Below, piece by piece: positions 31,553 through 58,708 of a DNA stretch of 64,000 bases. The DNA comes from Ceratodon purpureus. Taxonomy: Eukaryota > Streptophyta > Bryopsida > Pseudoditrichales > Ditrichaceae. The notes beneath the pieces were generated by a model, which was not told where the DNA came from, did not search any database, and worked only from the letters and a program-made list of their open reading frames with translations. The DNA lies in the NCBI GenBank assembly GCA_014871385.1, contig CM026422.1, positions 19,462,596 through 19,526,595 of the forward strand, given 5' to 3'. Position 1 is the stretch's first letter. Each line of letters starts with the position of its first letter. The translations under genes were made by a program, and so were the position numbers.

Positions 31553-31671
31553 GGGCATTCTGGTGTGGCAGCGGCGAGCAGTGAGCAGTGAGCGGTGAGC
31601 AGCCAAAAATCGCACCGGGGGTCAAAAGTGAGCAGACAAAAAACGCACCGGGGACCCTATGACCGTGGAAA
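31553..31671 (+). repeat. Left terminal inverted repeat of the giant MULE
   Basis: Contains GTGAGCAGTGAGCGGTGAGC-type short tandem words, then GCACCGGGG twice and a GACCGTGGAAA box. It matches the right end in inverse orientation, with one mismatch over 90 bp, and lacks a 33-bp unit present on the right. Confidence 0.9.
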
Positions 31672-31851
31672 AAATTACCGCCGGGGTTCCTATGAATCCA
31701 TGAGAGAATGAAGTGGATGAATGAAATTCAGACACCAAGATTCCAGAATCCGCAAAATTTATATATTGAAAAAAAATTGTAAATATTAAAAATGATCCTT
31801 AGAATCACCAAGGGGGGGGCTGTCACTATTCTCGGAATTGGAAGGCTTAGG

Positions 31852-32454
31852 CTACTCATTATCCTCTACCCAATCAAAATCTTCCTCTAAGAAAGCCGAT
31901 GGTCCGGGAGCTCCATTGCCAAAATCAACAACGTTGTCCGTAGAAGTCCATGTTGATCTAAGTCTTGGAATGTAGTAATGAAACAGCTCGGGTTCTCGAC
32001 ATGATATCCCGGAAGCACTCTCAACACGCCTGAGCGTGCGAACGTCGTCCTCGGTCCAGTCTATTTGGCCTCGATTTGATCGGATCACTTGACGAAGCTG
32101 CTGGACGTCAGAGAACATGTCCACCTCCTTACCAGGCCGTCGATCTTTGAACTTGTCGGTCACTCTCGAAACGAACTCCCTCAGCTCCCAATTATGCCAT
32201 GGTAACCCGTCCTGCATGCAGTGGAAGAAGAAGGGTAAGTGAGGTACACAATCTTGCAGAAAATGCAAACACCTAACTTAAACCGAAGGGAGTAAAGTAA
32301 ATTCAAAGATATTCAAATCAACAGAAGAGGCAATGAATCGAACCCGTAGCATTTCTGAAGTTGGGGGCATTGAAGACTTGATCTCCTCTCGTAACGAGGT
32401 ATGGCTAGTGGACGAGGATTGAACATGCTGGGCAGAGGGGGGGGACTGATCCAT
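31852..32454 (-). CDS. Unknown MULE cargo protein 1
   Basis: Two exons read on the minus strand, 32454-32344 and 32211-31852, joined in phase 0 with a GT-AG intron; 156 residues. The first exon is a Ser/Gln-rich N-terminus starting MDQSPPSAQ. The second has several Trp and Arg residues (DGLPWHNWELREFVSRVTDKF), a short helix (DVQQLRQVIRSNRG), and an acidic C-terminus ending DFDWVEDNE. No family is recognised. It is the first gene inside the left end and is transcribed towards that end. A run of 8 C's in the first exon is in frame. The donor is GT followed by a weak consensus, so the first exon is less certain than the second. Confidence 0.5.
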
Positions 32455-32751
32455 GACCGCGGTGTTTGCAAGAGAATGAGAGGAAAGATGAATTGAAGCT
32501 TAGGTCTGCAATGTAATTCTGAAAACAAGCTAAGGGGCTGGGAGAGAGAAGGAGCAATGCGTTTGTATGAGGTTGCTCTAAGCAACTAATAAGAGGCTCA
32601 GCCGTCGGTGGAGGAAACCAATCATAAATATAAGCTCGTACGTGGAGGTTAATTAAAACGTTTTTGGCGGCCATGGCAAATTGCAATAAACTCGCACGTA
32701 CAGATATACTGAATGCCTTACCCTTCAACATCTTCGTCTCCCAAAACATGA

Positions 32752-32765
32752 TGTCGGATCCGACA
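32752..32765. repeat. Perfect 14-bp palindrome TGTCGGATCCGACA
   Basis: Self-complementary word centred on GGATCC, about 165 bp upstream of the cargo gene starting at 32928. It shares the half-site TCCGACA with the satellite arrays and other palindromes of this element. Confidence 0.8.
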
Positions 32766-32927
32766 GTCAAAAACTGGACTAGCATGTTGTTGAGGTACTG
32801 CGCATTAATGTGCGAGTTTAGGGTTAACCTGTTTGGATTTGGAGGATGTGAACTCAAGTATGTCTCTCTTGTGTTATCACTTTTGTTTGCGCTTCGTTTT
32901 TAGCCTCCTTAGTTTGAGAATTGTAGA

Positions 32928-33551
32928 ATGGACTTCGCAGTGATCACCGACTTGTTCAGCCAGAGTTGGGTCACGCCCGAGTCAGCGATGGCTGAGCTCT
33001 TTCCAGACCTCATGCCCGAGTTGCATCGAGAATACATTGAGAACTCGGACTGGTGCTATGACTACATGACGCTGCTTGAGAACCTGCGGCAAAGAGGTGA
33101 TCGATGGGTGCTGCTGATTGATTCCATGCCAGCATGGTCGGCGTATGTGGTGGCTTTCAAGGAGTCGCGAGATGCAAGGAAGCGGAAAGACGAGTGGGGT
33201 ACAGGTATGGTTCATGCATACTGGACTGAGGCCCTCACCTTGTTTATGACAGACCGGGTTATCCCATTTGAGATTGACGAGAAACTTGTAGAAATGGAGC
33301 TCCGGGATCTTTCATTGCAGCAGAAGGTACTTTTGCGTGACCACCTGCGAAATAGTTACACCATGGAGGTGATGGGCCCTCCTACGGGCTACAGCATTGG
33401 CCAGTCTTCCATCTCTGGACCAGGGTCTTCATCCAACGAGAGGAAAGTATTTCCTAAGTATTGGGCACCACGAGCACTGCATTGCGGTCTTCTCTCGTGG
33501 CCTTTGCGAAGGAAGGTGCATCTCAACGCCGTGCTTGGAAAGCGATCATGA
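32928..33551 (+). CDS. Unknown MULE cargo protein 2
   Basis: 207 residues from ATG 32928. The N-terminal 150 residues look like a folded, helical protein with many acidic and Trp residues (SQSWVTPESAMAELFPDLM, WSAYVVAFKESRDARKRKDEW, LFMTDRVIPFEIDEKL). From about residue 165 another frame is equally plausible, so the C-terminus may be altered by an intron or frameshift near 33.4 kb. No family is recognised. It is divergent to cargo gene 1, and the palindrome at 32752 lies between them. Confidence 0.55.
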   Translation: MDFAVITDLFSQSWVTPESAMAELFPDLMPELHREYIENSDWCYDYMTLLENLRQRGDRWVLLIDSMPAWSAYVVAFKESRDARKRKDEWGTGMVHAYWTEALTLFMTDRVIPFEIDEKLVEMELRDLSLQQKVLLRDHLRNSYTMEVMGPPTGYSIGQSSISGPGSSSNERKVFPKYWAPRALHCGLLSWPLRRKVHLNAVLGKRS

Positions 33552-34767
33552 AAACAAGGTTTGTGTATTCCCATCTTTCAATTCTTTTGCGGTAGCAACA
33601 CTGATCCTGTACCATAGATATTGTCATGGTCGACGATGTTGGTAATTTAAAATGTCTAATTGATGTTTCAGTTGAGGCAGTAGTTTCAATTATCACTTAG
33701 TTTGATATATGCCAAGAATTTTATATGAATTGCGTATTCAGTGGTGGACAAATGGATTGTTGCATTTTAGGGATTTACGCCAAAGTCGAGTTGATTACAT
33801 CAAGGTGACATCCGTCATCAACTTAAAGTTTAAAATAGGCATTTTGCAATGTAACATTTTATTAAATTTAGGCTGGTAGAACTAGAATGGGGAAATCGGA
33901 TTTATGCTAAAATTCTACTAATGCCGCTAGGCGCTCTTAAGTGGAGTACACTAATACGTATAAAGCTCTCATGTTGATTGAGGAACAATATTGGTTTAGG
34001 ATATGGTTTACGATCAGTTAAAGGGTGGAACTATACTTCAACAGTGGATAGCCTTCAGAAGGCATGTATGTACTGAACTGCATTGGTAGTAAAGAATTGC
34101 ACTTGTGAATTCTGATTCATGAAAATGGCCCAGTGTTTCTCATCGTTTAGAAGGGATGCATCCAAACATATACTTTCATATACTGTAGTCTAGATGAATG
34201 TGAATCACACAACTTTCAGAGTTTTGGTAGCAATCGGAAGATGACTTCCTACTTTAAAGTGGGGGTTACAATGGGTGAGCTAAATTGGGGGTCAGCAAAT
34301 TAGATAATGAGCTCTAACCGTGTGCCGGATCCGATAGAGAAAAATTGACTCACCATGATTTCTCCGACAGTGAGTAATAGTTGCCTCACAGCAGATAAAA
34401 ATGTCCTTAGGATATTCATGAAGGTATTGATTCCTTCGCAATGACTGTAATTGTAATTCCCTTCGCTGAGTTCTATCAATTTCTTAGAGTTTTCTATTTT
34501 TCTATCATCGGATTATATGTAACTCTTTTGATACTCTACTGTCAGTACTTTGTAAAAGCACATGGCTGGTCTACTTAATATTAATTGATACATGCATGAA
34601 ATTGCGCAAAATCGAGACACATTATGTATGACCAGTATCTTATTTACAAAGTCGAAAGCATAAGAGTAGCCTAGATCCGTCTCTAATAACATAGAATAAG
34701 TAATGCTACTTTTCTCGTAGGTCCGAGTGGATATGTTCAACTACAAAATCAGAACCTTAGAGACCGT
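33552..34767. other. No gene seen
   Basis: AT-rich interval between two convergent cargo genes. A GCCGGATCCGATAG segment near 34323 is a degenerate copy of the TCCGACA palindrome word. Confidence 0.45.
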
Positions 34768-35208
34768 CTACTCATCATTATCACTGTCGGAGTCACTCAA
34801 GAGTATGAGAGAGAGCGCAGGGCCGTGAATTGCGGTAGTGCCATTCTTCACACTCTCAACGCTAATGGCGGAGCTACTATCCTCGGATTCGTCTCCATCT
34901 TCACTCGGGCAGCAAATAGTCCCTCCGCAATCCGCAGCGTGTTTCTCCATCCACCTCTGAACCCAAGGGGGAAATTCATCATCGAAGGTGTCCACTTCAA
35001 AGTAAAGTGACCTCCCATGTCCCTGTACGCACATTACCTTTAGCGTCTCTCCGCTGTCATTGATTCGGGCTGGGCTTACTCCATTTGAATCATGTGCCTT
35101 CTTGGGTTTGGGGTGGACATTATCGATAGGAGTGGCAAGGCGGGAGCAAGCACACCCTACCGGGCAAGACTTGCAAGGCATTGAAGAGGCCGAAGGAGAA
35201 CTTGCCAT
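34768..35208 (-). CDS. Cys-motif protein A (paralog of the protein at 39.9-40.4 kb)
   Basis: 146 residues from ATG 35208. Near the N-terminus is CKSCPVGCACSRLATPI, then a shared core VMCVQGHGRSLYFEV followed by WVQRWM, and an acidic Ser/Asp-rich C-terminus ending in LLSDSDSDNDE. The same three blocks occur in the same order in the protein encoded at 39891-40421. The clustered Cys residues (CxxCxxxCxC) suggest metal binding, and the acidic tail suggests interaction with a basic partner; both are inference. No known family is recognised. The paralogous pair inside one transposon points to duplication within the element. Confidence 0.6.
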   Translation of the reverse strand: MASSPSASSMPCKSCPVGCACSRLATPIDNVHPKPKKAHDSNGVSPARINDSGETLKVMCVQGHGRSLYFEVDTFDDEFPPWVQRWMEKHAADCGGTICCPSEDGDESEDSSSAISVESVKNGTTAIHGPALSLILLSDSDSDNDE

Positions 35209-35685
35209 CTACGAAAGAGAATAGACTTCTAGTTAGCCGAAAATCAAAGTACATCATAATCTTGATTAACATAATCCACTTTGTGCACGTCAAACAGACT
35301 AAATAATTGGAAAAGGAAAGATCCAATATTGTGAATTCTATAGATGCTAAGTTATGATAAAGTGAAAATGGTGTAAATTGTACCTTATTGTATTAAGCTG
35401 CTCTCGATAAACAAATGTTTGGGTCCTACAATGAACACCAGAATAGAAGAGTTAATTAATCAACTTCCGGCAGAGATTGTTAAAGCAAGCCGAAAAGCCA
35501 TTGGGATATAAAGCATGCTCAGTTACTAGCCATAGCTTTATGGCAGCTTGTTAGCATGGGGTAAAAACCTAACTCATAAAGCACATTTCAAATCTATCTA
35601 GCTTAAACTTGTCAACAGTAAGCTTAACAAGAACAAACTGGAAAACAACAGTCTAATATACAACAAGCGTAGCATACTACAAGCT

Positions 35686-35911
35686 GAAGATGCAATCTAT
35701 AAGTAAGATTATACCCCGCATACGAGTCAGGTTGCTAGTCAAGATGCCTAATGATATTTCCACACAATATGCACAACATACCGGAAGCATAACAGAGAGA
35801 AGATGCAATCTAAAAGTAAGCATTAAACCCCGCATACGAGTCAGTTGCTAGTCAAGATGCCTAATGATATTTCCACACAATATGCACAACACACCGGAAG
35901 CATAACAGAGA
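35686..35911. repeat. Tandem duplication, 113-bp unit, two copies
   Basis: Units start GAAGATGCAATCTA at 35686 and 35799 and share the long block from CCCCGCATACGAGTCAG through CATAACAGAGAGA with few differences. Noncoding; it lies upstream of Cys-motif gene A. Confidence 0.85.
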
Positions 35912-36314
35912 GAACAGAACCATATAACAAGCAAACTAGAAAAGCAAGAATCAAGAGAGGCATACCAAGAAACACAAGATCAGCGGAAGGAAACGAGAAG
36001 ATATTGAATGTATCTAACTTATATAGGGGCTGGACGCGGTGCATGGCAAGCGGCGGCGCAATTTCAAAGGAGGCGGCGCAAAATTAGGCTTTGAACCCTA
36101 ATCAAGCCGCAGATAAACAAGTGTGGAGGTCTACCCTGGCGGTTATAATTGCGGATTTGGGGCGTCTAAGAATCTAGAGACGGTGGGTAGGTCAAGGTGG
36201 CTAAAGCATTTGCGGGCCCAAGGTCTAAGGGTTGGGTTGAAATTGCGCGGTCCTACGAATTGGGCGGCAATCCAGGCGCGTGACAGAGGTCGGTGGTTTG
36301 GGAGTGAGGCTCAA

Positions 36315-36340
36315 ACCATCTGTCCGATCCGACAGATGGT
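36315..36340. repeat. 26-bp palindrome ACCATCTGTC...GACAGATGGT
   Basis: Ten-bp perfect arms around a CGATCC centre. It carries the same GACAGAT half-site as the 74-bp satellite. Confidence 0.8.
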
Positions 36341-36371
36341 ATTGGGCATCTCCATTCTTTGCCGGGGTTGA

Positions 36372-36930
36372 TGGATGTCCTCCGTGGTTGAGGTCCAAGG
36401 ATGTCTGTAGTGGCTGATAACCGGCTAGGGATATCTAGTGGATGTCAGGGTTCGGGGGCTGTGATGATACTTAGGGGTTCGGTGTATCTACCGTGAATAG
36501 AATTAGGATTATTTTGTTTAGAGAGTCTGTTGAACTTTGCAAATTAAAAGAAAAATTAGAGGTATATTTAAAGAACTTAATTTTAAGACATCACTAATGT
36601 AATACCATATGGACCATAATCGTATACTTTTTTTGTAATGGAAATGGATATTATTTACTGCTCAATATTGTTTTATCAAAATTAAATCGATTGTTAAAAC
36701 AATGGTTAAAGGAGAAGGTATTACGTTTAACACATCACAGAAAATAACATAAATTAAATATTTATATATACACGCATAATACTAACTTACTACTTTAGAA
36801 AGATATGTACTGATATATACTAGAAACGCCACACAAAGGTTCATTTAAACAAGATATTTACATTAAGGAATTTTGAAATCTCAAGATTTAACTACGTAAG
36901 AAACGAAGACGCTGAAGAGGCCTGTGGGTG
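36372..36930. other. No gene seen
   Basis: AT-rich interval without an open frame of note. Confidence 0.4.
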
Positions 36931-37014
36931 AACCCCGGCGGTTACACTAATGAGCCCAAAACTTCAGAAAAATCCGTCAGATGGATTCTGAGCTCTGCGA
37001 GAGCTGCCGGGGTG
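36931..37014. repeat. CCCCGGCGGTT hairpin element, copy 1
   Basis: AACCCCGGCGGTT at the left and GCTGCCGGGGT at the right form inverted arms. Between them is AATCCGTCAGATGGATT, a variant of the element's palindromic word. Its structure matches the copies at 41245-41328 and 43158-43241. Confidence 0.65.
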
Positions 37015-37984
37015 GGGGCTGGGTGCTGCTCGGAAGGTGCTTTTGAACGGTCTGAAACTTGTGAACGTTAGTTGACTTATGAACGGGGTCCTGCGATAGG
37101 AGACATATGATCGGGGTCATACAGGTGACTAACTATTTACAGAACGTTCTCGTTAAATTATAGAACAAATATCCGAAGTGATACTTTTACAATATTCAGT
37201 ACAAGGTAATAGATTTCATAATAAGTTTAAACCATAAATAGCAAAAGGAATTTGTGAACTCATTGTGGAAAGAACGTTAATACAATATAAAGTAGAAAAT
37301 TAAAAATGAATAATTAAATAAAAAAAAACAGTCAATAAGAATTTAAGAAAAATGAAAGTTCTGATAAATATATTAGGAATAGAGGTATTAGGGTTGTGTA
37401 TGCTATAAGCCATCACTATGAGCACACCTGAAAAAGATTTTTTTAATCTTCCAAAATTACTAAGAGGATTCATATCTATAAGGCTAGTTAGAATATTCAT
37501 ATTTTCCGTCTATTAGTAATATTATTTAATCTGAATTACAGAATCAAATGAAATAAAATGACATGAAATGCATAATGTCTTTTTATATGAAGAGAATTGT
37601 GGAATAGATGTATTATTACAGGTTTAAACCAGAAAAAACTGAAATGAATTTGTAAATTCAATGTGGATAGATTGTAAGTAATATATGAAGTAAAAAAAAA
37701 GGAAATACAAAAATAAAAATAAAAAAGAAATAATTTATTAGAGTAATTATCGCAAGGAAAATATAATAGACAGAGTGGTATTAGGGTTAAGCATGGCGTA
37801 CGCCACCACCATTGGCACACTTTATATGACTTACTCTACCTTCCATGATTAATTACAGTATTCATATTTTCAAACGCGGACTAATAGAGTTTTGAGTACA
37901 ATCATAAAATAAGAGGTATCAAAATCATTTAAAATGGAAAACAAATAATACTTTTAGTAATAATGCCTCTATTTTATTAAAATT
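37015..37984. other. AT-rich interval, no gene seen
   Basis: Very AT-rich; open frames are short and composed of AT-rich codons. It probably includes the 3' flank of the minus-strand gene that follows. Confidence 0.4.
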
Positions 37985-39016
37985 TTAAAGTTCCAAGTGC
38001 TCCTGTTTTGGACGCTTTTGTGGTTGATCTTCATTGTCAGGGTCTCTTGTCCGCTTCCGTATTGGAACCCAGTCGTATCGTTTTTCCCAAATTGATGCCG
38101 TTTGTCCGCATCCAACTCGGTCCAGCCATATCCCTTCATTATCTGCTTTCCATGCGCAATCTATACAGTCGATAGGCATTGAAACGTGGTTCACTAGAGG
38201 AGGTTTCCATATTTTAACATCCCTACGATATGCCATACTCCCCAGGTCTTTAAATTTGCATATCCAAGGCGAACTGAGTAAACGCTCGTCGGTGCGTGGA
38301 TTTAAGGATATGTAAAAAAATCGTTCGGAAATGTGTGCTTGAAGTCGTCCTGGAATAATCACAGTATTCATTGGGGCATCCATAACTCCAAATGTAAGCA
38401 GTAATTCATCATCGAGATCATTGAAAATAGACACTCTATACTCCTTTAGAAATTCGTGGTGGTCCTCGTCCTCCTTCCATTGCTTAAAAAGCTTGTACTG
38501 ATGTCTACCGCTAAAAGGATGGAACTGAGAAACATACAGACCATCTTGTTCAATATTCCATCGACACAAATATGTATCAGGGCTGGGACCTTGTTCACAG
38601 ATTGGACAGTTGTCATCGTTGAAATTTGCATCTTCGTGCCGCATAAGACGAGCATGTGGATGCTCCCAGATGCACATGTAATTAATCTCATATTTTTTGG
38701 CACAGTTCCATTCGCGGATTTCGTATTCAAAATCGCAAAACAAATTATCTTCAAAATCGAGAAGACCGCGGCCTACTTCGACAGATTTATGAGCTTTGAT
38801 TTGATCAAAGACGACATTTTGCTTTATTGGCACACCACGTTCATATTGCTTTTCGAAGCAATCTAGCCATACCTTCTTGTGCATATTATTTGTAATTTCA
38901 ACTGGTGACAATACATTCTGTATAATTTCCTCATCAAATGATCGTACTTGTCGGAAAGTTGTCAAAATTAAGTAATACAACAGTGAAAAAATGGGTTTAA
39001 GTCTATGATATTCCAT
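37985..39016 (-). CDS. Unknown MULE cargo protein 3 (343 residues)
   Basis: Single open frame from ATG 39016 to the stop at 37985. The N-terminus is hydrophobic (FSLLYYLILTTF) and might be a membrane or signal segment, or part of an unspliced leader. The body is rich in Trp, Cys and aromatic residues, with CPICEQG and a repeated Trp/Asp pattern (IDCIDCAWKADNEGIWLDRVGCGQT). The end is strongly basic (VPIRKRTRD, QKRPKQEH), which looks like a nuclear localisation signal. No known family is recognised. Codon composition is AT-rich compared with the ParB-methyltransferase gene. The lack of stops over 1 kb in AT-rich DNA supports a real gene. Confidence 0.7.
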   Translation of the reverse strand: MEYHRLKPIFSLLYYLILTTFRQVRSFDEEIIQNVLSPVEITNNMHKKVWLDCFEKQYERGVPIKQNVVFDQIKAHKSVEVGRGLLDFEDNLFCDFEYEIREWNCAKKYEINYMCIWEHPHARLMRHEDANFNDDNCPICEQGPSPDTYLCRWNIEQDGLYVSQFHPFSGRHQYKLFKQWKEDEDHHEFLKEYRVSIFNDLDDELLLTFGVMDAPMNTVIIPGRLQAHISERFFYISLNPRTDERLLSSPWICKFKDLGSMAYRRDVKIWKPPLVNHVSMPIDCIDCAWKADNEGIWLDRVGCGQTASIWEKRYDWVPIRKRTRDPDNEDQPQKRPKQEHLEL

Positions 39017-39890
39017 GCTATAAAATAAATGTGAAATTTGATCGAATTCTAATTGAAGATTAGGAGCTTTTGAAGAAAGACTACAGAGCTTTAATTTTTG
39101 AAATATTGAAAAAACTTGTTGTGCATTGTGCCCATCCTTTCATATCACTCTCGATACCTTTTCAGTAGCAGTTATACCCTTTGAATATAGAGAACGGTTT
39201 AACATAGCAGTTATTTTATTCAAAGATATCCAGTACTTATCACATACATTTCCAATATCCAATTGCTGGCCGCGAACACTTGCAGTTAATGCTCGTATTT
39301 AAAAACTTATAATATTAATTCATGCGACTGTACTTATGAAATCGGAGGAATAAGAATGATAAGAGAAGTATTACTTGAATTGTTTGGAATGAAGGTGTGG
39401 CAGCGGTGAACAGTATTAAAAAAATGATTTAAATTTCCGAATTAAGACCCTTGCTGTTGAAGAATTTATATAAAGTTGAAACTATAAAAAGTAAAATAGA
39501 TTCATAAACAACATGTGGAAAGTGCGTGAATAGTAAATTCGAATGAGGAAATTTCAATGAAAGTGTTAAACAGTAAGAGTCATGTTATAAAAAAAAAACT
39601 AACAAAAATTGTTATAAAAAGAAATCGTTTGGTTGCGGACACTTTTCTTCCGCTTTTGCCGTTAGGGGTTAAGGATAAATTCTTGATGCTGATTGAAGGA
39701 AAATATTGATCGTCAGTCAAAGATAATTGTGCTTGTTTCAAAAGTATGCAAATATATTATACAACCCGATATCTTGTTTTTACAAAAATCCACTGTTTAA
39801 AGGGATCGACTGGTTATACAGAAGCATCAGCCTAGAGAGCCGAGAATATGGTTTGCCGCATAGAACACCTACAGCTACAGAAGCACAAAT
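39017..39890. other. No gene seen; includes a stray TIR-like segment
   Basis: AT-rich. At 39393-39413 the sequence AGGTGTGGCAGCGGTGAACAG matches the first part of the giant MULE's inverted repeat, in left-end orientation. Confidence 0.5.
39393..39413 (+). repeat. Isolated MULE terminal-repeat-like segment
   Basis: GTGTGGCAGCGGTGAACAG differs from the left end's GTGTGGCAGCGGCGAGCAG at only two positions. No matching right end was found nearby. Confidence 0.55.
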
Positions 39891-40421
39891 CTACTTATCC
39901 GAATCTTCGTCATCGTCGCTTAAGAGTACGACGGGGTTCTCAGGACTATCTACCTCGTCGTAAACACACTCTGCCGCGTACTCAAGACAATCGGAGTCCT
40001 CGTCCTCAGATACATAGCCACTCGGGTAGTAGTCACGCCCGTCGCCGCCACCTGCAACGTCATCCATCCACTTCTGGACCCACTCGGGGAGACCATCCTC
40101 AGAACTTTTCACTTCAAAACAAATTGAGCGCCCGTGACCTTGCACACACATGACGTGCATAGTGTCTCTGGTTGCAGGGAGAGAGTCGCCGCACTGGTCA
40201 ACGCGCTCCTCGGATGGCATCGGAAACAAACTCCTCGGGACCGGGATCTTGAGCGCAGGTGGACTTGATAAGCTGGGACAGGTGCAAGCACCGGGAAAAG
40301 GGCAAGTCTTGCAGACCTCCGCAGAGCTTGGGAGAGGGATTGGAGTTGCGGAGCAGGTGCATGCAGTCCCATCTATGCACGTCTTGCAAGGCTCCTCGGC
40401 GGTGGGAGGGGAGTGTGCCAT
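39891..40421 (-). CDS. Cys-motif protein B (paralog of the protein at 34.8-35.2 kb)
   Basis: 176 residues from ATG 40421. Two Cys clusters near the N-terminus (CKTCIDGTACTC and CKTCPFPGACTC), then VMCVQGHGRSICFEV, WVQKWM and an acidic tail ending LLSDDDEDSDK. Protein A has one Cys cluster and the same following blocks, so B has an internal duplication of the cluster or A has lost one. Metal binding is inferred. The function is unknown. Confidence 0.65.
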   Translation of the reverse strand: MAHSPPTAEEPCKTCIDGTACTCSATPIPLPSSAEVCKTCPFPGACTCPSLSSPPALKIPVPRSLFPMPSEERVDQCGDSLPATRDTMHVMCVQGHGRSICFEVKSSEDGLPEWVQKWMDDVAGGGDGRDYYPSGYVSEDEDSDCLEYAAECVYDEVDSPENPVVLLSDDDEDSDK

Positions 40422-40715
40422 CTGATAAGAGCAATTGACATATCTTTGTTAGCATAACTAAAGAACAACGATAGAATGAATCTTAAGCAATGCCGAGAGT
40501 ATGAAAATAAGCAATAGGTGATTGAGTGTAATATGATATCACTATTTACCTTCACTGATCGAACGGTATTGATGATGCAACGCTACAAGTTTCGAAAACG
40601 CCTGAAACACCAGTGTCAGCCACCAAGTTAGACCAGTTGCAACAATCACATTTTAGAGACTAAAGAAACCTTGACAAAGAAAATCAGCCGCACGCCTTCT
40701 ATCCCATCCTATCCC

Positions 40716-41035
40716 CATTCGGCCCGCACTCATCCCTCACCCACCTCCCCTCTCATTCTTCACCCCCTCTATCATCTCTCACCCCATTCGGCCCGCCCTC
40801 ACCCCTCATCCACCTCTCCTCTATCATCTCTCACCCCATTCGGCCCGCCCTCACCCCTCATCCACCTCTCCTCTATCAACTCTCACCCCATTCGGCCCGC
40901 CCTCACCCCTCACCATCCTCACCGCTATCAACTCAATTCTTCCCCTTTCGTCCCGCCCTCACCCTCAACCCACCTCCCCTTTCTTTCCTAACCCCCTCTA
41001 TCAACTCACACCCCATTCGGCCCGCATCTCAGGAG
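40716..41035. repeat. 52-bp tandem repeat, pyrimidine-rich
   Basis: About five to six copies of a unit beginning CCATTCGGCCCGCCCTCACC, spaced near 52 bp in the best-conserved part (40785, 40837, 40889), with degraded edges. It lies upstream of Cys-motif gene B. Confidence 0.85.
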
Positions 41036-41244
41036 AAAGAAGAGAAGATGAAGAAACGCACCTTAGGAGTTCGAAGAGAAGATGAAGATCAATGGAAACA
41101 TATGATGCTTAAATAGGTAGATTGTCGGCCAGAAATGGCGGCGCGGGCGGCGGCTAGGTCAAAGGATTGAATGGCGGCGCTGGCGGCGGTGGATTCCAGG
41201 TCAGGGCAAGCGACAACGGGTGCGGAAGCTCGGTTGGAGGTGGT

Positions 41245-41328
41245 AACCCCGGCGGTATTGGCAACGGGCCATAGACACTTGACAAATCCGACAGATGGAT
41301 TTCGCAAAAGGCGAAGGCCACCGGGGTC
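41245..41328. repeat. CCCCGGCGGT hairpin element, copy 2
   Basis: AACCCCGGCGGT and CCACCGGGGTC form inverted arms around AAATCCGACAGATGGATTT, which is itself an inverted repeat of AAATCC around GACAGAT. Confidence 0.7.
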
Positions 41329-41339
41329 ACCAGATAGGG

Positions 41340-41720: not shown

Positions 41721-41805
41721 TAAAGCGCGAGTGCTTTCGGGTATCATGCTGACATTAGAAGTTAGTTATTGAAAAGTACGTAATTGCCAAGCAATCTTTG
41801 TTAGG

Positions 41806-48440: not shown

Positions 48441-50111
48441 GATCAATTTCCACTCATCACCACAAATTTTAACGTCCTATATTCAAAGAATAACCCAATT
48501 GATCAACTCCAAAGTATTTACCTCGTTTTGAAATCCCTTGCCATGGACTGGATTTGCAACGGCTTGCTCTCTGTTGAACTTTGTTTGCAGCCTATCCTTG
48601 GCTTCCTTCACGGCCTTGTCCACAGCTGCCCTCATCTCGTGCCCTGAATCATCACCAGGGTGCTCGTTGATCCAAATTTGAGAAGCCTCCTCTGCGACTT
48701 GGGCCAATGTTGCCTGTTTCAGTCCACGTGCCATTAACATCTCGGGACTTGAATCATCCAATTACGAATTGACAGCACTGATTTCTTATAACACTTACGC
48801 TGTGTAAAAACGTCACAAATACTTCTTGAGGCATCGAGTGCCACGACTTCTTAGTTGAACTCTTCGTGCGCGCCAGAAGATCCGGCGTTAGAATTCCACT
48901 CCTTTCCAGCTCCTCCACAGACATTTGCCCGTACGTCTGTATCTTGTGTAGAGTGTGCGGCAGCCTTTCTTTGACGTAAGCATCCTCATTGGCCCTGTGT
49001 CGAATACAACACACACTTCTTTAATATCAAAGATTCTAAATTTCCATGTTATTATATCCAACATCAACATCCGGAGAAAACACAATACTCTTGCACAGTT
49101 TAGGACTCACTTGTTGATGGCATGCATTGCTGTCACTAGAGCTTCACGGCTTCCCTTCACATCGAGCAGAATACAGTCCGGCCTTCCGTTTGCTTTAGCC
49201 CATTCAAGATCATCTGGGTATTCCACTTCGATGAACTCCCGCCATGCCCTTGTGCGGTGGTTACCATCGAAGACATAAAACATCTTTCCTGTAAGATCTT
49301 TTGTCTCCCTGTGCTGCCTGATCTCATCCTCGAACGCAGCGTTCAACACCTTCCAAGCATTACACCATCCTGACTTCATCTCCTCGGTGACACTTGCGAC
49401 GTCCCCCGTGTGCTATGTATCTGCAACATAAAATGCCCCAGACCCGGGTCTTATGCCGTTGAAGAACTCAGCTTGCAACTTCTGTACATCACTCTGCATT
49501 GCTGGACGCACGAAATCACATGGGATTAACCGGCATAAGGGAATCTTGATCATTGAATATTGGTGAGGTCTGCGGCGCATTTTGAGTAATGCAGCGTATG
49601 GGTCCGGCTTCAACTCCTCCCTGAATTGACGGAATGCTTGCCGAACATTCACAGGCTTTCGAGGAGGTTCAATCTCTTCCACCTGCCCACCAAGGCTCAA
49701 TAGAGTATCAGCGCCGGCTTCGCCATCACCAACTTGGGTCTGATCCTCGGTCTGATCGTCATCCTCCTTGCTGTCCTTGTCCTTGCTGGGTTCTTGCTGA
49801 AACCAGTCCTCCTCCGGCTGCTCACGCGAGCCATCCTCCTGCTGCTCACGCGAGCCGTCCTCCTGCTGCTCACGCGAGCCCTCCTCCTGCTGCTCGCTCG
49901 AGAAGCCCGCCTTGCCCACTTCATCATCTCCTTCGAGCAAGGAGCCCATAAAGTTTACTTTTGGTCGGGCCCTGCCATTACGGATGGGAGGTTGCGAACT
50001 ACCCATATCCTCGTCCATGAAGGAACCTCTCGGAATATCGTCTATCACGCTCTTCACTGCCTCTGTGGCCGCGTCTACCATATCGTGGGAAGTGCTCATC
50101 GCGCCCTGCAA

Positions 50112-51054
50112 GGTAGAGGCACGTTACATGCAAGTCAATAGAAGGCCGCATTTCAGAGCACAACAAATACACCCAAATGCGAAGCATAACATCATAAACC
50201 CTAAGAAGTCACAAAAACCCTAAGCAACACTTACAGATGTAATGCGTATTATACGGCAATCCGTCACTAGTTGTTCTGCACTCCCAATGATTAAAGCCTT
50301 GAAAAAACGCCGCTCTTGACACCCACAAGCCCTTCTCGGCCACAATAATTCAGACCTCGCACTATCCACCTAAACCTTGCAACGGCAAACCAAATGGAGA
50401 TGTGCTCTGAAGCCGCCCCTCTCAGACCCTCTCAAAACCTATACTTACACCATTTCAGCATACCCTTAACCTACCAAAGAACCTCACTCCAAACCCCCTC
50501 CTTGCATCTCCGACCTCCAACACCGCAACCCTCAGAAAACTGAAGAGCAAGGGTTCCCGTCTGTCAATTTATGCGTGCTTACTCCCTTGCCTCGACAGGC
50601 TTCTAAAACACACTTCTTGCTCACACCCTTTCCACGATTAGCTTCTAAGCCACACTTCCTGCTCGCGGCGGCCCCCACTCTACCCTAAACGCGACAACCA
50701 TCAATTCCTACAGCTAACTACAATGATGACCGCACCAACTTCCTACTCAAAGTTAAGTATGACAATGACTGTGATGCATGCCAAGAACCTACAAACTTTT
50801 AAAACCCTCATAAGCCATTAGTACACACCGCGGCCGGCTTCAACCCGGTTGGATGATGACAACAACCACTCCCTCCTCTACGCCCAGCGTACCATGAAAA
50901 TTGCGACGGCAAACTATTAAACCATAAAACACTTATCATGACGATCACACCACTCACTATTCTGATGCCGCAAACCAGTCCTACGAGTACTTGATCCCGA
51001 CCTGGCACTGGCTAGCGAAAATCTCGCTGATCAATCATGATGCTACAGCTGCGT
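50112..51054. other. No gene firmly supported
   Basis: Pyrimidine-rich in places. An acceptor CAG directly upstream of the ParB-gene ATG suggests that a 5' leader intron may lie here. Small minus-strand frames show no motif. Confidence 0.35.
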
Positions 51055-51871: not shown

Positions 51872-54800
51872 ATGGCTCGTATACGTGCTGAAGGTCACGA
51901 TGTTCCATTCTGTGTCCCATGTAATTCGGAGGGTGTAGGGTCGATTACCGCTATCTTGTTGAGCGTGAGATACAACCTTGTTCTTGAGTCCGTCCATCTT
52001 GAGGAAGAAATTGTCAACGACGACGGCGAACTGATTCAAACTGTATATCAGATGCCGATTAGAGCTAAGGATGGTAGGGAGTGGCTTCTTGAGGCTAGAA
52101 GATATGTCGTGAGGGGACTCACTGCGGATCGTTGGGCTGCATCCACTGAGATATTAACACCGGGCCGATCCATGACATCGACTGTCGATGTTGGAACCGA
52201 GCCCAATCTTCCTGTGAAACAACCCGTAGCTCAACGCATTCATGTCCTAAGTGAGTCAGATAAGGATGATTTCGTTACGCCGTCCCAAGCTCAGCCAAGT
52301 TCTTCGCAGAAACCAGTATCGGGTAGCTTCAGTGTCATCCCCGGCCTTATGCGTCTTTTTTCCAAACCCGGAGCGAGGAATGCATTGTCGAGGTTGGACT
52401 TTAGAGCACTTCAGAGGGATCGCGTGCCATTTCTACCGACCGAGTTTAACGGGGACGTGCTCTTCGAGCTTCCACCAATCCCTGATCGCGGCACTGCAGC
52501 GAGCGCAAAGTCGATGGCAGGGATGGATAAGAAGTACGACGCACATCCATGGTGCAAGACCATGACGACCAACATCACAAACGACCAAGGACTGACTTTC
52601 AGATATTCTGTATGTGCAGGTCATCTGAAATGCCAGAACGAGAAGTGCGACTTCTTGCTTCGAGGAGACAAACGCAAGATGGAGGTGAACGAGTCTGAGT
52701 GGGACGGTGTCACGCTTACCCCGTTTGTCGTTGGTTGTGATCCTCCTCCGAAGTCCACACTTGTATGCAAAATCTGCAGATATCCCCCGGAATGCATCGC
52801 CACGTGCCCTGCAAGGATGTACTACGTGCTCGGGAATCCTGCGATGTCACGTGCGTGTATCCATATCGGTACACATAACCACCCTGTTGGATACGTTGAG
52901 TGCAGGGAGACCAAGCAGAAGGTTCTCGACCTACTCGAGTTGCATATGCAGAACACTCCGTACGCCAAGACATCGGCCCTAGCTCTAGAGGCGAGTAAGG
53001 ATTTTCTGAGTGAGTACCTCCTAATTGCACCGGGGGAGAAGCGGACCATTCTTTCGGACGAAGAGTTGGATGAGGTGTTCAAGAAGTATTATACACTCAG
53101 CAAGCCCGGGCTTAAGAACGCCGTGACGACCTTCAGGGGGATCGGTAACCTGGGCATTATCGACGGCATCGCTGCCTTGCGGGGCTGCAGCAAGTGGGAG
53201 TTTATTCATGACAATAAATTTCCCGGGCAGGGTTCTGAAGGGGACAAGGTTTTTATCTTTAAGATGTCCGAGAAAGGTCCCGGGTCGGGAGTGGACCTTG
53301 TAAAGCGAATGCAACCTGGCGGGGATCTCCAAGATTCCTGGATTATGTTTGATCACGTCAAGCGCACAAAGGGTTGGACAACCATGGCATGTCATGTCTA
53401 TGACTCTCAGTATTGCCGGGTCATGACTATCGCCATTTGTGATATGCAGTCAGAAGACGTGAGGGCCCAGACCGTGATGTGGCAATTCCTGAACGGAATA
53501 ATGGCAAAATATGGCTATGACAAAGTCAACTTCAAGGGCTTCATGGCGGACAGCCCCCAGGCCAACTGGAACTGTGTGCGGAAGATCTATGGAAGTGGCG
53601 ACGCGACGGTTCCAATGCCAGACCGTGAGCGTACGTGCCAGTTTCATTGGGCAACCTCACTTAGGAAGCACACTGAGGCTCACATCATCGGATCAGATTT
53701 GCAGAGGCAGCATTACGTGCTTTGCAAGCAGTATCGTGATGCAAAGAACATGGAAGAAGCCGACATTCGTTTCCACGCGATCCGAGCATGGTGGACCTCC
53801 TCAGGCGCTACTACTGCCTCCGGTCTTCGTGACCTCGAACTCTGGCTCGTATTTTGGCACTTTAGATATCGGCAGTGGGGAGGCTTCATGCAATTGGTGA
53901 GTACAACATCTCTTTTTTTATCCAGTCACTTAATACACTTATTTGACGTAGAATTGATTGAATCAGCAATTTCTTTGATTGCAGGACCTTACGGACGCCG
54001 AGAAGGACGAGATGCCCTCTTGCAACCTCTCGGAGACTGTGCACAATATATGGCTTCAGATGTCGGGCAATCGTGGCGACAACATCTACTTTGCCACGGT
54101 GGACGATTATGTCAGGGGCTTCATGCAATGCACTAACTATAGCGCCTACCTGCGAGGTGAGACCCCGGGTAAGGGACCTTGCAAAGCCGAACTCCGTTTA
54201 CGGCGAGCTCAAAAATCAGGGATTCCCAAGCGCCTTGCCGATGCCACTGAACACTTCCATGACGCTCCACAGTTGCTCTCCCGTGAGCCACATCGCGAAG
54301 GCGAGGAGCTCTTTGGGTCCACGAAACGGAAGCTGAATCAACCGATCGGATCCGAATATGACTCCCACAGGCCGGACAAGGTAAATTTTTCTCAACCTCG
54401 TCTGAGCACTAGGAATACGCGAGCACGCAAGGAGCCTGATGCTGAACGAGAGGATTCACCTCCACAAACGGTCCAAGCGGCACCCCCATCGCCAGTCTCA
54501 AGCCCGGACGAGAACAGGAGTCGTCATCACGTAACCGCTGTGGAGGAGACGGATGTGGACGAGAGTATGTGGCACCTTGTCAGGCTTCCAAAGGGATCGG
54601 CGAAGGCGTGTTTTGCTCAACAGGCGAGGACGAATAAGAAGTGCACGGCGAGGCTCATACGGGGAAAGAAGGCTACAATTGTGCCATGCTACTGGGGCAT
54701 CTTTACCGACGTCAGGAAGGATCAGCAAAAATGGATGCAGTTCTGCTTCTGTAACGACGACATCCAGAGATGCGTCATGGGTACTAAGCGGAACTGGGTC

Positions 54801-55433
54801 TCCAGCATGCCCCCTCCCCCGCTTATCTGGCCTGTCAAGCGTGGCTCTCGCCTTTCAAAGAGGGAGATACTTGACCTCGAGGCAGCCGGTTTCAGACTCC
54901 CTCAACGCCAAGAATTACCCGCTCACCAAGTTTTTCACGACGGTGCATCTCTCCCACAGCGGCCACGGTTTGACCTATCGCAGTGGAGTGTACCCCCTGC
55001 TCCAGGAATATATCCCACGGTGCGAGGAGGATTCAAGATTCGGCGTTGTAACCGGGTGCCACGAACAGAGCACGAGAACAACTGGGCCTCATCTACTCTA
55101 CTCACCATTCGAATCCAATCAGTCACACTCATACCTAACCCAGGTTTCGGGTGCATCATCAGCGTTGTCTCTGAGACCGTATCGGAGTCCAACGTCTACA
55201 AAATAACAATTGGCCCGGAGCCCGCCTGCACCTGCCCCAACTTCAAGGAAATGTCCATCAAGTCGCTGGGAAAACGACCTCCCTGGGTACCTTGCAAGCA
55301 TCTCTATTACATCTTCAATGCTATATGCAACCTTGATATTCACCAGGACTCCTACATCCATGCTCCAAGCCTCAGCTTTAACGAGGTCAAGGCTATTTTT
55401 CAGAGTGGCCTTCTTTCGCTTATCAATGTCTAG
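51872..55433 (+). CDS. Mutator-like (MULE) transposase with zinc region and SWIM finger
   Basis: Two exons, 51872-53896 and 53985-55433, phase 0, 1,157 residues. ATG 51872 is chosen over the non-ATG extension. Residues ~224-345 form a Cys/His-rich region (AHPWCKTMTT, CQNEKCDFL, CKICRYPPEC, ACIHIGTHNHP) like GCM/WRKY-GCM1-type DNA-binding zinc domains of some MULEs. The MULE core follows: IMFDHVKR near 493, FMADSPQANW near 560, and the CQFHWATSL segment near 590 in the C/D-x2-H position. The third acidic residue is not certain. A SWIM finger, CTCPNF...WVPCKHLYYI, lies near residues 1088-1112. The region between has a Pro/Ser-rich linker and a second, W-rich domain. No internal stop. This gene identifies the 27-kb element as a MULE; its expected target duplication fits the 11 bp seen. 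Confidence 0.88.
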
Positions 55434-56404
55434 GTTTGCTTCTGATGTGTCTTTTTCCCCTACCTTCATCCTATGGCGCTCGGTACGAACTCGGTGACAT
55501 TTTTATTCCTATTACGTCACAGATTAAAGCGGTGGCAAAACAGCTCGTATTCATGTCGGATATTCAGATCATGTGTTGGCATGACCATCGTTTAGTATAC
55601 GGTTCAATCCAGACATTTTTGTATATTTGTATTTATTTCTATAAATATTCTAAGTTTTCCCAGAAATTGATCTACTTTATGCGCCAACGATAGTAAAATT
55701 TCTTATTATCAATTGTACCCAATCACACCGAAGACATAGACTGCACATGCTCTCACTTCTCTGCTATCTAACTGATGCATCCATCCAAACGCCGTCGCAA
55801 TTCTCATCCCGAAAAACGTTGTCGTCATGGCATAATGAAGAATTCTGATATTGGGCCGGGTCCCCCTCATCACGGCCCCTTCCCAAACCCGGCTGACGGT
55901 TTTTTTGAGTCCACTTCGTTCCCCTCCCGCGGCAGGGTACCTTGCCTCAAGTCCGTCCCGGAAATCATCTGACGGATCCGGCACTACGTTCTGGGTCCGA
56001 ACCAAAACCACGGGTGGCGCCCTTCCAACACTTCAGAGAACTACCCTACGGGTAACAAAATGACATCTCAGTAATTTAAGTCCGGTAAAATTCATGTTGA
56101 TCTCCCGGATGACACAATATTGCAGGGATCCTACTGCCGGATTTTTTGGCAGGTATATATCCCGTTATATAATCATCCCGTTTGCTCCATTAAGAGAGAT
56201 ATATGTATTGTATTCTAAATGATGATTAGATAATGTTTTGGAGGTCATCGAAATGCACGCTTTCCTCATAAGCAGAGTTCAAAAAATCTCGGTTAACTCA
56301 CCTGAATCCTGCCAGACTGCCGCCGAACTCGTGAGAGTACGATACACCTCAATCGATAAAGCTGTATTCAATTACCAATGTTTCATTGCTGATTCCGGCG
56401 CTCT
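55434..56404. other. No gene seen; palindromic word at about 55966
   Basis: CATCTGACGGATCCGGCAC near 55966 is a variant of the element's TCCGACAGAT word, again with a CCCGGG-like GC-rich setting on each side. No protein frame is convincing. Confidence 0.4.
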
Positions 56405-56419
56405 GTGATTGCTTGTGGG

Positions 56420-57151
56420 ATGGTCTCTATATATGAGGTTAGTGGAGATCGCATAATCATTCTCAGCTCAAGCCTCATGCCAATGGACCTCGCGATGAAA
56501 CCAATCTATTTTAGCCTAGGCCGTAAATCGCGAATTATGTTAGACACCAGCTCCATGATGGATCCGCAGATCGGGGATATTGTATTTCGCAAACCCTCCG
56601 CCCAGGCCAAGATTGAGTTCTCACTCTACCAGTGCGCTGAGGATTGGTCTCAGAATTTTAAGACGTGGCTTTTGAAAGTGTTTACCTGCAGTGTGGTCTT
56701 TGATGATCAATTTCTCCATTCCGTTGACGCTCCAAAGATGATGAGGTGCATCATGCTTTTTGTCTGGGTACCTGGCCAAGGCTTTCAAGAAGCACCTTCC
56801 GGTGGAATCATGACACCTCATATTCCTCCGAGTGAGTCCACAACCTTTCATCGACTGAGTCAGGTGGGGTTCTTCCCGGACGGCAATAGCGTGACGTTGT
56901 GTTTTGCGCAGCCCTCCCCACCCGACCCAGTCACGTTTCTGAGAGTCGATTTCTGGAGGGACACGTACCGTCAGGAAGCGTATTCGGGGCTGCAGGTTCT
57001 TAACGTTGTTGACAACCCTTCCACGCAGTGCCCTACGCTGCGCATGATTTCTCTATGGAAACGAAATGGCGAAAGATGGATTTGTGATAGTTCTGTGATA
57101 GGTCCAAGTCTGCAGTCTGTATCGGAGGTGGCGAAGGAAGTTCCCGTTTGA
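56420..57151 (+). CDS. Unknown MULE cargo protein 5 (243 residues)
   Basis: From the first ATG at 56420; the frame is open 15 bases further without an ATG. Regular mixture of hydrophobic and charged residues, with several beta-strand-like runs (IIILSSSLMPM, CIMLFVWVPGQGF, VTLCFAQPS, LRVDFWRDTYR). No known family is recognised. It follows the transposase on the same strand, spaced about 1 kb, so it has its own promoter or is a distal exon. Confidence 0.6.
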   Translation: MVSIYEVSGDRIIILSSSLMPMDLAMKPIYFSLGRKSRIMLDTSSMMDPQIGDIVFRKPSAQAKIEFSLYQCAEDWSQNFKTWLLKVFTCSVVFDDQFLHSVDAPKMMRCIMLFVWVPGQGFQEAPSGGIMTPHIPPSESTTFHRLSQVGFFPDGNSVTLCFAQPSPPDPVTFLRVDFWRDTYRQEAYSGLQVLNVVDNPSTQCPTLRMISLWKRNGERWICDSSVIGPSLQSVSEVAKEVPV

Positions 57152-57946
57152 CATCTATGTTGACAGCATCGTGATATAGTCGCTGTTTTGTAACAGGGTA
57201 TAGTCGTTGTACTGCTTTTAACTTGCTCCCTTAATACATATGTAATCACTTTGATATCAGTCTATCTTTGCCAAGCTTACATTTGCACATTGTTTGAACC
57301 ACTACACTTTAATTCTTGAACCAAATTAACAGCAGACTGTGCATCATCAAGCCCCGTTTCACAAACCAAGTGTCTGTGTATGTTGAGTTCTTTGTCACTA
57401 AACTGTCCCACAAACTATTTTCATTTCCTATCTCACTATAATCCAGGTACCACCGGCTCCAGATGATGCAGTTGTCCGGCCGTCGGAGTCCCATGACACT
57501 CGGTCGTCCTTCCCTTCACCCTACTACCTTAGTACCGCACCCCTACCATTCTCCTGTATGTGGCTGACGGATTCGTCAGTAAGTTTAGTCTTGCCAACAA
57601 TATCGAGGGTGCCCACCCGTTCAGGACTAACATTGGAATTGTAAAATTACGTCACGGTAACTTATGGTTTCATAATGAATATAAAAGTTCATAACGCCGG
57701 CCGTCCTTCGCACTACGTCCTTGTTACGGATCTTAATTGTACCCAGAATGGAGGTGAAACATGTCACATTAGATCGAGTGAAATTGAAATGCCAAAATTG
57801 AAATATTTTCTCGCCCCCCATGTCATTCTTTATTGTACCCAGGTTGGTTAAGATACATGATAACGACATTTAGATTTCCTAGGCTCGGACGATGCTACGG
57901 CTGCAACCACTAATGCAGTTTACACTTAAATATTTTGTTAGCCTTA
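57152..57946. other. No gene seen
   Basis: AT-rich interval between convergent cargo genes. GGCTGACGGATTCGTCAG near 57566 is another inverted variant of the palindromic word. Confidence 0.4.
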
Positions 57947-58447
57947 CTACTGCTCAACGGCAATACTATCTTCTCCATCAACAGAAAAGTCTAGCCTCTC
58001 CCATCCTTGGTGTTCTTCAAGATTGATTGCAGTATCAGTCGCCGATATGGTTGGCGTTGTTGGTCTCTCTAAATGCTTGGGCAATTGCGATACGTACATC
58101 TTTCCGTCCCCAACGGCACCAGCATATGGATTGGCCGCGCATCTCAACGTCCTTGTCACGATCGGTTTCATCATCTTTGGCTTCCAACACGGACTTGCGA
58201 TCCTTGGAATGTTCCTCGAACCGCGAAGCTGAGAATATGGGCCTGCTCTTGGAGGAATCAAGTTCTCCATGTTTTCCGCTTTGTCGATCACAGCCACTTC
58301 CCTTCCAGACTGAATCGAATAGTCACCTAGGTTTGAGAGGATATCAATTACTTCGCACTCTTCCGCACTCGGAACCCAAACTTCACAGTCCTCTTTCACC
58401 ATCCCCATGCCGCTAATCACTTGCGCACATCTGAGGTACCTCAACAT
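57947..58447 (-). CDS. Unknown MULE cargo protein 6
   Basis: 166 residues from ATG 58447; the frame stays open upstream to 58522 without an ATG. Features: MLRYLRCAQVISGMGMV, then a Val/Ile/Asp-rich run (SAEECEVIDILSNLGDYSIQ), a Pro-rich middle and an acidic C-terminus. No family is recognised. It is the innermost gene at the right end and transcribes away from that end. TCTGTCGGATTTT, the half-site of the element, is at 58468-58480, just upstream of the start. Confidence 0.5.
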   Translation of the reverse strand: MLRYLRCAQVISGMGMVKEDCEVWVPSAEECEVIDILSNLGDYSIQSGREVAVIDKAENMENLIPPRAGPYSQLRGSRNIPRIASPCWKPKMMKPIVTRTLRCAANPYAGAVGDGKMYVSQLPKHLERPTTPTISATDTAINLEEHQGWERLDFSVDGEDSIAVEQ

Positions 58448-58556
58448 TCTATGGTCGCCCAAGAGCGTCTGTCGGATTTTACAGTCTTTCCGCTGCCAAT
58501 ATTCGGGGGCGGTACCTCGCAATTTCCACGGTTATATGCCACACATGCTCGACAAA

Positions 58557-58708
58557 TTTCCACGGCCATGGGTCCCCGGTGCGTTTTTTGCACACGAAAA
58601 TATTGGCCCCGGTGCGGTTTTTGTCTGCTCACTTTTGACCCCCGGTGCGATTTTTGGCTGCTCACCGCTCACTGCTCACTGCTCGCCGCTGCCACAGTAG
58701 CATCGCTG
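58557..58708 (-). repeat. Right terminal inverted repeat of the giant MULE
   Basis: Inverse of the left end over 90 bp with one mismatch, but with an additional 33-bp unit (a second GCACCGGGG with GTGTGC spacer) before the shared CCGTGGAAA box. The outermost 12 bp are only partly like the left end. Confidence 0.9.

Follow-up and report, generated by a model that had tools for sequence, protein, structure and literature searches.

The genome of the moss Ceratodon purpureus contains, at positions 31552-58708 of the window (the whole stretch of 64,000 nucleotides analysed here), an element of 27,157 bp that is very probably an autonomous DNA transposon of giant size, with terminal inverted repeats and of Mutator type. 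Its genes are best read as residents of a giant Mutator-like transposon and not as host cargo in the style of Starships. It has about ten genes: a transposase, a methyltransferase-like gene (MT) and about eight genes of no recognised function. The number is that of an earlier note made from the sequence alone, and the ORF inventory of the window element confirms it. The features are as follows.

29787..31550, minus strand: host gene, downstream part, with the DDE_1 domain of a pogo/Tigger-type transposase gene
31542..31551, no strand: left copy of the target-site duplication, direct repeat AATCTCTAAC
31552..31686, plus strand: end A, tip CGGGCATTCTGG at 31552-31563, then the inverted arm with GAGC[AG]G each 7 bp
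31855..32277, minus strand: resident ORF g1, 141 aa, no Pfam match at cut-off
32913..33548, plus strand: resident ORF g2, 212 aa, no Pfam match
33552..43551, no strand: hypervariable mosaic interior, with blocks that are 36-100% identical between pairs of copies
34771..35208, minus strand: variable ORF V1, 146 aa, paralogue of V3
37988..39139, minus strand: variable ORF V2, frame of 384 aa, with a weak match to Self-incomp_S1 (E 0.064, below cut-off)
39894..40448, minus strand: variable ORF V3, 185 aa, paralogue of V1
41773..42285, plus strand: variable ORF V4, 171 aa, no Pfam match
43670..45844, minus strand: MT gene, N6/N4 DNA-methylase-like, below Pfam cut-off
46842..48436, no strand: minisatellite arrays with a period of 149 bp, separating MT from P
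48486..50123, minus strand: P gene (ORFs 49416-50123, 49110-49412, 48757-49020 and 48486-48761), no Pfam match at cut-off
51872..53896, plus strand: transposase exon 1, open frame, with a zinc-finger-like region, catalytic D, D and CxxH
53897..53984, plus strand: putative transposase intron, GT..AG, 88 bp
53985..55433, plus strand: transposase exon 2, open frame, with the conserved E and a SWIM-type CxC..CxH
56393..57148, plus strand: conserved ORF o56, 252 aa
57950..58531, minus strand: resident ORF o58, 194 aa, no Pfam match
58574..58708, minus strand: end B, inverted arm and tip CAGCGATGCTAC (58697-58708, inward reading)
58709..58718, no strand: right copy of the target-site duplication, direct repeat
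58824..59466, minus strand: host gene, upstream part, with HTH_psq and HTH_Tnp_Tc5 (frame 58915-59466)

The direct repeat, AATCTCTAAC followed by C, lies at 31542-31551(2) and 58709-58718(9). The earlier note took it for perfect 11-bp repeats at the element edges, against the background that MULEs make duplications of 9-11 bp and are normally a few kb long; the repeats are real, and the duplication proves to be of 10 bp, not 11. Over the 49 pairs of ends described below, the 10-bp register alone gives duplications (none in the 7, 8, 9, 11 and 12-bp registers); therefore an 11-bp duplication was rejected, the edges were reset to 31552-58708, and the 11th matching base is a C common to both sides by chance. 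The long inverted repeats 27 kb apart reported earlier are borne out by arms at 31557-31686 and 58574-58703 (130 nt, 86% complementary, 26.9 kb between them). Inside the tips the arms are identical at 107-109 of 122 aligned positions in all eight elements compared, as in the long terminal inverted repeats of the Mutator type. The outermost 12 bases are unlike between end A and end B, each tip being conserved in its own right. The element splits a pogo-type gene, in agreement with the earlier claim of a split gene: on one and the same strand, the left flank yields a Pfam match to DDE_1 and the right flank matches to HTH_psq (above cut-off) and HTH_Tnp_Tc5 (just below it), and an exon-like stretch in the 58824..59466 part ends at a CAG/GTAATG donor.

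Other copies of the ends were sought in the genome with an exact 18-mer, a search that small or diverged derivatives could escape. The search yielded 142 ends (70 of type A and 72 of type B); the reversed motif, used as a backward control, had no occurrence. Inward A/B pairs made up 48 of the 63 close neighbour pairs, with lengths of 17.2-73.3 kb (median 27.9 kb) and none below 17 kb, while random placement of 142 ends gave 0.84 such pairs on average and five at most. Chance pairing is ruled out by these two controls. Edges were read for 51 pairs, two of which, with same-type ends, were set aside. A 10-bp duplication was found at 44 of the remaining 49 A/B pairs (39 perfect, all 44 different; 0 of 2352 in the control) and was absent at five, including C7a, one of the six collinear copies described next. 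Matches to both transposase and MT are present in at least 32 of the 49 pairs, and a match to one or the other in at least 42.

The window element and seven other copies, out of the 49 pairs, were read whole. Six of the seven match the window element at both tips and are collinear with it over 82-100% of its length; the arms are 88-100% identical outside the minisatellite, and the fetched copies contain the same genes in the same order. Since the duplication is present at 44 of 49 pairs and both gene matches in at least 32, the comparison of copies indicates that the giant gene-bearing unit moves as a whole. The tips, the duplication, this mobility, the conserved catalytic motifs and the resident gene order are what such comparison establishes. 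The earlier note had asked for a genome search and alignment of this kind and would have given up its reading had the ends never enclosed these genes; a transposase or MT match lies inside at least 42 of 49 pairs, and the note's view of a single giant unit bearing genes was right. A pair of ends from small elements around unrelated DNA, or a false join in the assembly, has next to no probability: 46 of 142 ends stand outside inward A/B pairs, as such a history would allow, but the duplications, the lack of short inward pairs, the shared genes and order and the gene matches in at least 42 of 49 pairs together refute it.

The transposase of the window element has 1,157 aa in two open exons, with the layout D, D, CxxH, E and a SWIM-like knuckle. 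CxxH between the second D and E is a mark of Mutator transposases. Residues D517, D583, C612 and H615 are at least 90% conserved in 37 relatives, E17 of exon 2 is present in 91% of 79, and the CxC..CxH columns (C415, C417, C437 and H439) in 95-99% of 93-98. Read by motif, the protein thus has the DDE triad with CxxH and the SWIM/FLYWCH-type knuckle; a match to the Pfam MULE model (PF10551) was obtained for 0 of 26 family members even at E 1. No other Pfam family matched these 26 members, the SWIM model gave no match despite the knuckle, NCBIfam offered nothing meaningful, and the transposase profile matched no PDB sequence. The full-length MULE transposase of the earlier note therefore stands as regards its two open exons and Mutator-type motifs, and lacks the Pfam match. 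At the level of motifs the enzyme appears to be of MULE type, since its catalytic and zinc-knuckle layout and the 10-bp duplication fit Mutator.

The same giant cut-and-paste element might instead be served by an enzyme from a separate, unnamed DDE superfamily related to Mutator, hAT and P. We regard this as unlikely, if worth keeping in mind. The profile results would agree with it, as would the difference between the two tips and the size of this deeply conserved family (150 relatives by exon 1 and 173 by exon 2). It is opposed by the D-D-CxxH-E and CxC..CxH motifs, the long arms and a duplication within the 8-11 bp that a passage of PMC6446971 gives for MULEs, in which, according to the same source, extra ORFs occur.

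A second transposase family, 72% identical to that of the window, also has MT alongside, and in both families MT is divergent to the transposase. The stretch 56410-57162 (the o56 region) is 91-92% identical to family 2 in DNA. The family-2 tip has 31 places in the genome at 0-1 mismatch. As a second giant family, family 2 was considered from its transposase-side tip, in three copies. This tip resembles end A; in family 1 it is end B that adjoins the transposase.

Mobilisation in trans, in which a few intact copies or family 2 would carry along most copies as passengers, is rather improbable. It would account for the damage seen in some copies, for the 7 of 49 pairs with neither gene match (among the matches listed) and for the identity of the family-2 tip to end A at 11 of 12 bases in the three copies read. 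Self-supply is nevertheless available, since among the 56 family-1 transposase matches that were scored, 30 span the exon-1 query of 698 residues in full and with no stop; moreover, mobilisation in trans concerns the source of the enzyme and not the nature of the element.

In the window copy the first MT frame falls into two pieces (44879-45844 and 44260-44928); of the six other full-length copies, five have it as a single frame of 521-554 aa. Two further frames, 44003-44263 and 43670-43918, are possible later exons of MT. PF01555 matched MT below cut-off (E 5e-4 in the window copy and 0.012 in copy C3a), and two of nine members gave a match to an N4C/N6A methyltransferase domain, which points weakly to a DNA methyltransferase. 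In the P gene a ParB-like DGNHR motif was spotted by eye, with no usable Pfam or NCBIfam match, and PDB searches with MT and P returned nothing usable. ORFs 49416-50123 and 49110-49412 are one 338-aa frame in five other copies; the window copy has a stop codon in P. Because of this stop and the broken MT frame, the window copy may no longer be autonomous. Within-family dN/dS of the core genes is low (0.12-0.34), with overlapping non-genic frames giving similar values, so that these ratios are weak evidence. A large DNA virus, or an element resembling one, that integrated and borrowed a transposase could explain the size, the many genes of unassigned function and the methyltransferase-like gene. 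Such an origin is very improbable, as Pfam scans of the ORFs tried found no viral hallmark gene and IMG/VR contigs held no relative of the transposase.

About 10 kb of the interior varies between copies while the flanking arms stay 88-100% identical (minisatellite left aside). Host-gene cargo was rejected as an explanation: the main variable ORF families are common to all seven full-length copies compared, and among the ORF versions of the window (ORFs unique to single copies lying outside this Pfam scan) no host-type gene was recognised and none matched at cut-off. For the interior we favour a reading in which inter-copy recombination would have reshuffled old allelic lineages of the resident genes onto a recently spread backbone.

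In the mechanism that we propose, the element's own transposase would bind the GAGC[AG]G arrays in both inverted arms as its putative binding sites, and would cleave the DNA at the unlike tips CGGGCATTCTGG and CAGCGATGCTAC. It would join the entire unit, typically 25-30 kb in length, to the target with a 10-bp stagger and a preference for R-N10-Y. The accessory genes most likely form a DNA-binding and DNA-methylating pair that would mark the element's own DNA against silencing. Tentatively, and with somewhat less than even confidence, we suggest that giant plant DNA transposons of this kind form a new clade or superfamily, which no Pfam transposase family covers and which has many relatives in public sequence collections. 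Its members would combine a fixed self-modification module with a hypervariable cassette of genes, 10 kb long, that recombination exchanges between copies.

Plant cut-and-paste elements are usually described as a few kb long. Dozens of units of typically 25-30 kb with exact insertion scars mean that this limit fails in the present genome, where an element several times larger than plant jumping genes of its type as usually reported has some fifty copies. Three questions become testable in this system: how a DDE transposase handles 27 kb, of what use methyltransferase-like accessory genes are to a transposon, and what causes the hypervariability of a gene cassette whose two flanking arms are similar.

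Among known systems, MULEs (MuDR, VANDAL and Pack-MULEs) share with the moss element the long inverted ends, a duplication of 8-11 bp, and the DDE transposase with a SWIM-type knuckle. The moss element differs in its 27 kb, about ten genes, a transposase outside the Pfam MULE family, two different conserved tips and no recognised captured host gene; according to a passage of PMC6431247, no reported Pack-MULE exceeded 7 kb. Lanisha (Repbase Reports 2020; Maumus, McDaniel and Carey) was probably found in the same moss, because its authors overlap those of the Ceratodon genome paper. PMC12730594 describes it as EnSpm-like and as having C2C and H3-4H motifs, and places it in a group whose duplications are of 2-5 bp. 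Identity with Lanisha or the CMCT clade was rejected, the moss element having CxxH and a 10-bp duplication.

The earlier suggestion that a giant MULE might be undescribed in plants held in the literature searched, where no earlier description was found. It is limited to plants, since algae have giant DNA transposons of their own, from other superfamilies and with several genes: PMC12477816 describes transposons of the KDZ, EnSpm and Sola-1 types in Ectocarpus that carry accessory genes and range from >10 kb to about 30 kb in length, giant KDZ also in Chlamydomonas and giant EnSpm in red algae. Among them, Sola1-1_Ec32 encodes a protein that is ParB-like and an N4C/N6A DNA methyltransferase. 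The algal giants resemble the moss element in size and in having accessory genes; they differ in superfamily (compared by name only) and in host, a land plant here, and MT and P of the moss element seem to be two distinct sets of ORFs.

Starships of fungi carry variable host cargo, and share with the moss element the character of giant gene-bearing transposons. No tyrosine-recombinase captain domain was detected among the ORFs scanned against Pfam; a published abstract centres Starship classification on that recombinase. The cargo lifestyle like that of Starships, proposed in the earlier note, is not supported, as the interior gene families recur in seven copies with no host-type gene recognised. 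The moss element departs from Starships in having an enzyme of DDE type and families of resident genes that recur from copy to copy.

The window element is one member of a genuine family of giant transposons that hold several resident genes each and have an interior of mosaic make-up. Its inverted arms are 130 nt long, 86% complementary and separated by 26.9 kb. An 18-base motif from the ends occurs 142 times in the 362-Mb assembly (141 times on 13 contigs) and never when read backward; these are exact 18-mer counts, which diverged or small derivatives may escape. By the base preceding the motif, 70 ends are of type A (left in the window element) and 72 of type B (right). Neighbouring ends lie <100 kb apart in 63 cases, including 48 inward-facing A/B pairs spaced 17.2 to 73.3 kb apart (median 27.9 kb), against a mean of 0.84 such pairs and a maximum of 5 in 1000 runs of random placement.

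The other 46 ends are not in inward A/B pairs. Such single ends make up 18 of 40 on the 110.5-Mb contig C6 and 28 of the 102 on other contigs (Fisher P 0.049), as if element copies decay more on C6. This contig, 30% of the 362.5-Mb assembly, is probably a sex chromosome. In PMC13120521 the genome of Ceratodon purpureus is put at 349.5–358 Mb, with sex chromosomes at ∼30%.

Edges were examined for 51 pairs (37 among the first 100 end-motif matches listed and 14 further). Two pairs with same-type ends were left out; the resulting 49 A/B pairs exceed the 48 inward pairs because one pair was classed A/B from its tip though both its ends are of the Y class. A 10-bp target-site duplication is perfect in 39 of the 49, has one mismatch in three and two mismatches in two, and is missing from five. 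Registers of 7, 8, 9, 11 and 12 bp gave no duplication in any of the 49 pairs, and swapping flanks between pairs gave 0 of 2352 at ≤2 mismatches. All 44 duplications differ from one another; the base just outside is R on the A side in 32 and Y on the B side in 31. Since the 10-bp register alone yields duplications, the window element spans 31552–58708, bordered left and right by AATCTCTAAC. Direct repeats at both edges, as described in the earlier note, are thus confirmed, with their length corrected from 11 to 10 bp.

Seven further copies were compared whole. Six match the window element in both tips, over 82–100% of its length and in the same orientation; five of these carry the duplication (C7a does not). 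The seventh, C1a, has been cut down to 17 kb by deletion; its transposase is broken, and no duplication could be recognised at its edges. When the window element and the six full-length copies are compared, identity is 92–100% in the left 2 kb and 88–100% in the right 15 kb, with a minisatellite lower (75–99%). This minisatellite (window 46842–48436) has a 149-bp period and shows gaps when the copies are aligned.

The ends also enclose the same genes elsewhere, as the earlier claim of a gene-carrying element implies. Of the 49 A/B pairs, at least 34 contain a match to the transposase, at least 40 one to MT (a DNA-methylase-like gene) and at least 32 both; these are lower bounds because few candidates were scored (64 of 2723 and 79 of 3849, respectively). 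Among scored candidates, seven of the 49 pairs have neither. Elements of 17–19 kb at C7:11564310, C13:2131972 and C6:55028169 have perfect 10-bp duplications and no scored match to either gene; they are candidate non-autonomous forms.

Between the conserved arms, ∼10 kb vary from 36 to 100% identity per 1-kb block, switching along the sequence. The window is 98–100% identical to copy C3a over 33.5 to 40.5 kb; to copy C1b it is 54–87% identical up to 38.5 kb, then 97–99%. The main interior gene families (V1/V3, V2 and V4) recur in all seven full-length copies, V2 being fragmented in one. What the interior holds is thus one set of genes in diverged forms and not a changing set of host genes, the Pfam scan having covered the window's versions. 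A Starship-like cargo lifestyle, as proposed earlier, is not supported by these copies.

The transposase, with two exons and an inferred 88-bp intron, would have 1,157 aa. At E 0.01, public collections of predicted proteins contain 150 relatives of exon 1 and 173 of exon 2; the nearest probably come from the same species. Precomputed Pfam domains were found in none of the 120 matches listed for each exon, and a Pfam search with the transposase found no family. Conserved positions in exon 1 are D517 (MFDHVK), D583 (MADS) and C612xxH615; in exon 2, the E within CNLxETVHN is conserved in 91% of 79 relatives and the CxC..CxH knuckle columns in 95–99% of 93–98. The order D, D, CxxH, E, CxC..CxH is what we take to be the Mutator layout, a reading that also draws on a table in PMC6446971. 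The element is most likely Mutator-like; the MULE transposase of the earlier note thus stands by motif layout, not by Pfam match. The genome holds at least 56 matches to this family (family 1; 64 of 2723 candidates scored), 91–100% identical, with 30 of the 56 full length without a stop.

A second transposase family (family 2), 72% identical, has at least eight matches among the same 64 scored candidates, all open over the matched part.

Copies of the family-2 transposase in the window's own assembly (contig:position)
C5:19202770
C12:2699415
C8:14411944
C8:12334668
C11:7454019
C13:8943879
C9:9678670
C10:11842462

The family-2 tip differs from end A at one of its 12 bases and has 31 sites at 0–1 mismatch. 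The stretch at window 56410–57162, which holds o56, a 252-aa ORF, is 91–92% identical in DNA to family 2 (L115/L116/L117), the transposases being 72% identical; substitutions number 14/17/36 by codon position. This similarity could reflect selection or strong constraint, or recent exchange between the two families.

MT has a weak Pfam match to N6_N4_Mtase, under the cut-off, and eight relatives in the protein collection (23–95% identity). With 79 of 3849 genomic candidates scored, at least 70 rows belong to family 1 (89–100%) and at least nine to family 2 (51–52%), with one extra fragment. In both families it is found upstream of the transposase in divergent orientation, 3.3–6.7 kb away in 46 family-1 pairings and 5.6–7.4 kb away in five of eight family-2 cases (of the other three, one has its MT 29 kb off and two lack a nearby MT); MT is thus an old resident of the transposon lineage. 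The P gene, with a ParB-like DGNHR motif seen by eye only, adjoins MT on one strand in the window element, and the two may form one putative gene. The window copy may no longer be active, as its MT frame is interrupted and a stop lies within P.

The right flank of the window element encodes HTH_psq (and HTH_Tnp_Tc5 slightly under the cut-off), the left flank DDE_1 on the same strand. An exon-like stretch on the right runs up to a CAG|GTAATG donor that is ∼105 bp away from the duplication's right copy, and the duplication lies at the likely start of the next, predicted exon. When the flanks are joined the DDE_1 frame stays open as far as this point, which agrees with the split gene noted earlier; the element thus split a pogo/Tigger-type transposase gene. 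Other genes in the window, outside the element, are as follows.

20114–23822, + strand, CACTA/EnSpm-type transposase gene (Transposase_21, DUF4218, weak DUF4216)
3068–3433 and 4255–4680, + strand, exons of a short-chain dehydrogenase gene

In open-licence literature (Repbase not covered), searched through titles and abstract starts plus the available parts of PMC6431247, PMC12477816 and PMC6446971, no giant MULE or giant moss element of this kind was found for plants among the papers listed. Identity with Lanisha was rejected: according to PMC12730594, Lanisha belongs to a different, EnSpm-like group. Pack-MULEs as first reported included none >7 kb, according to a giant-transposon review (PMC6431247); the window element measures 27,157 bp.
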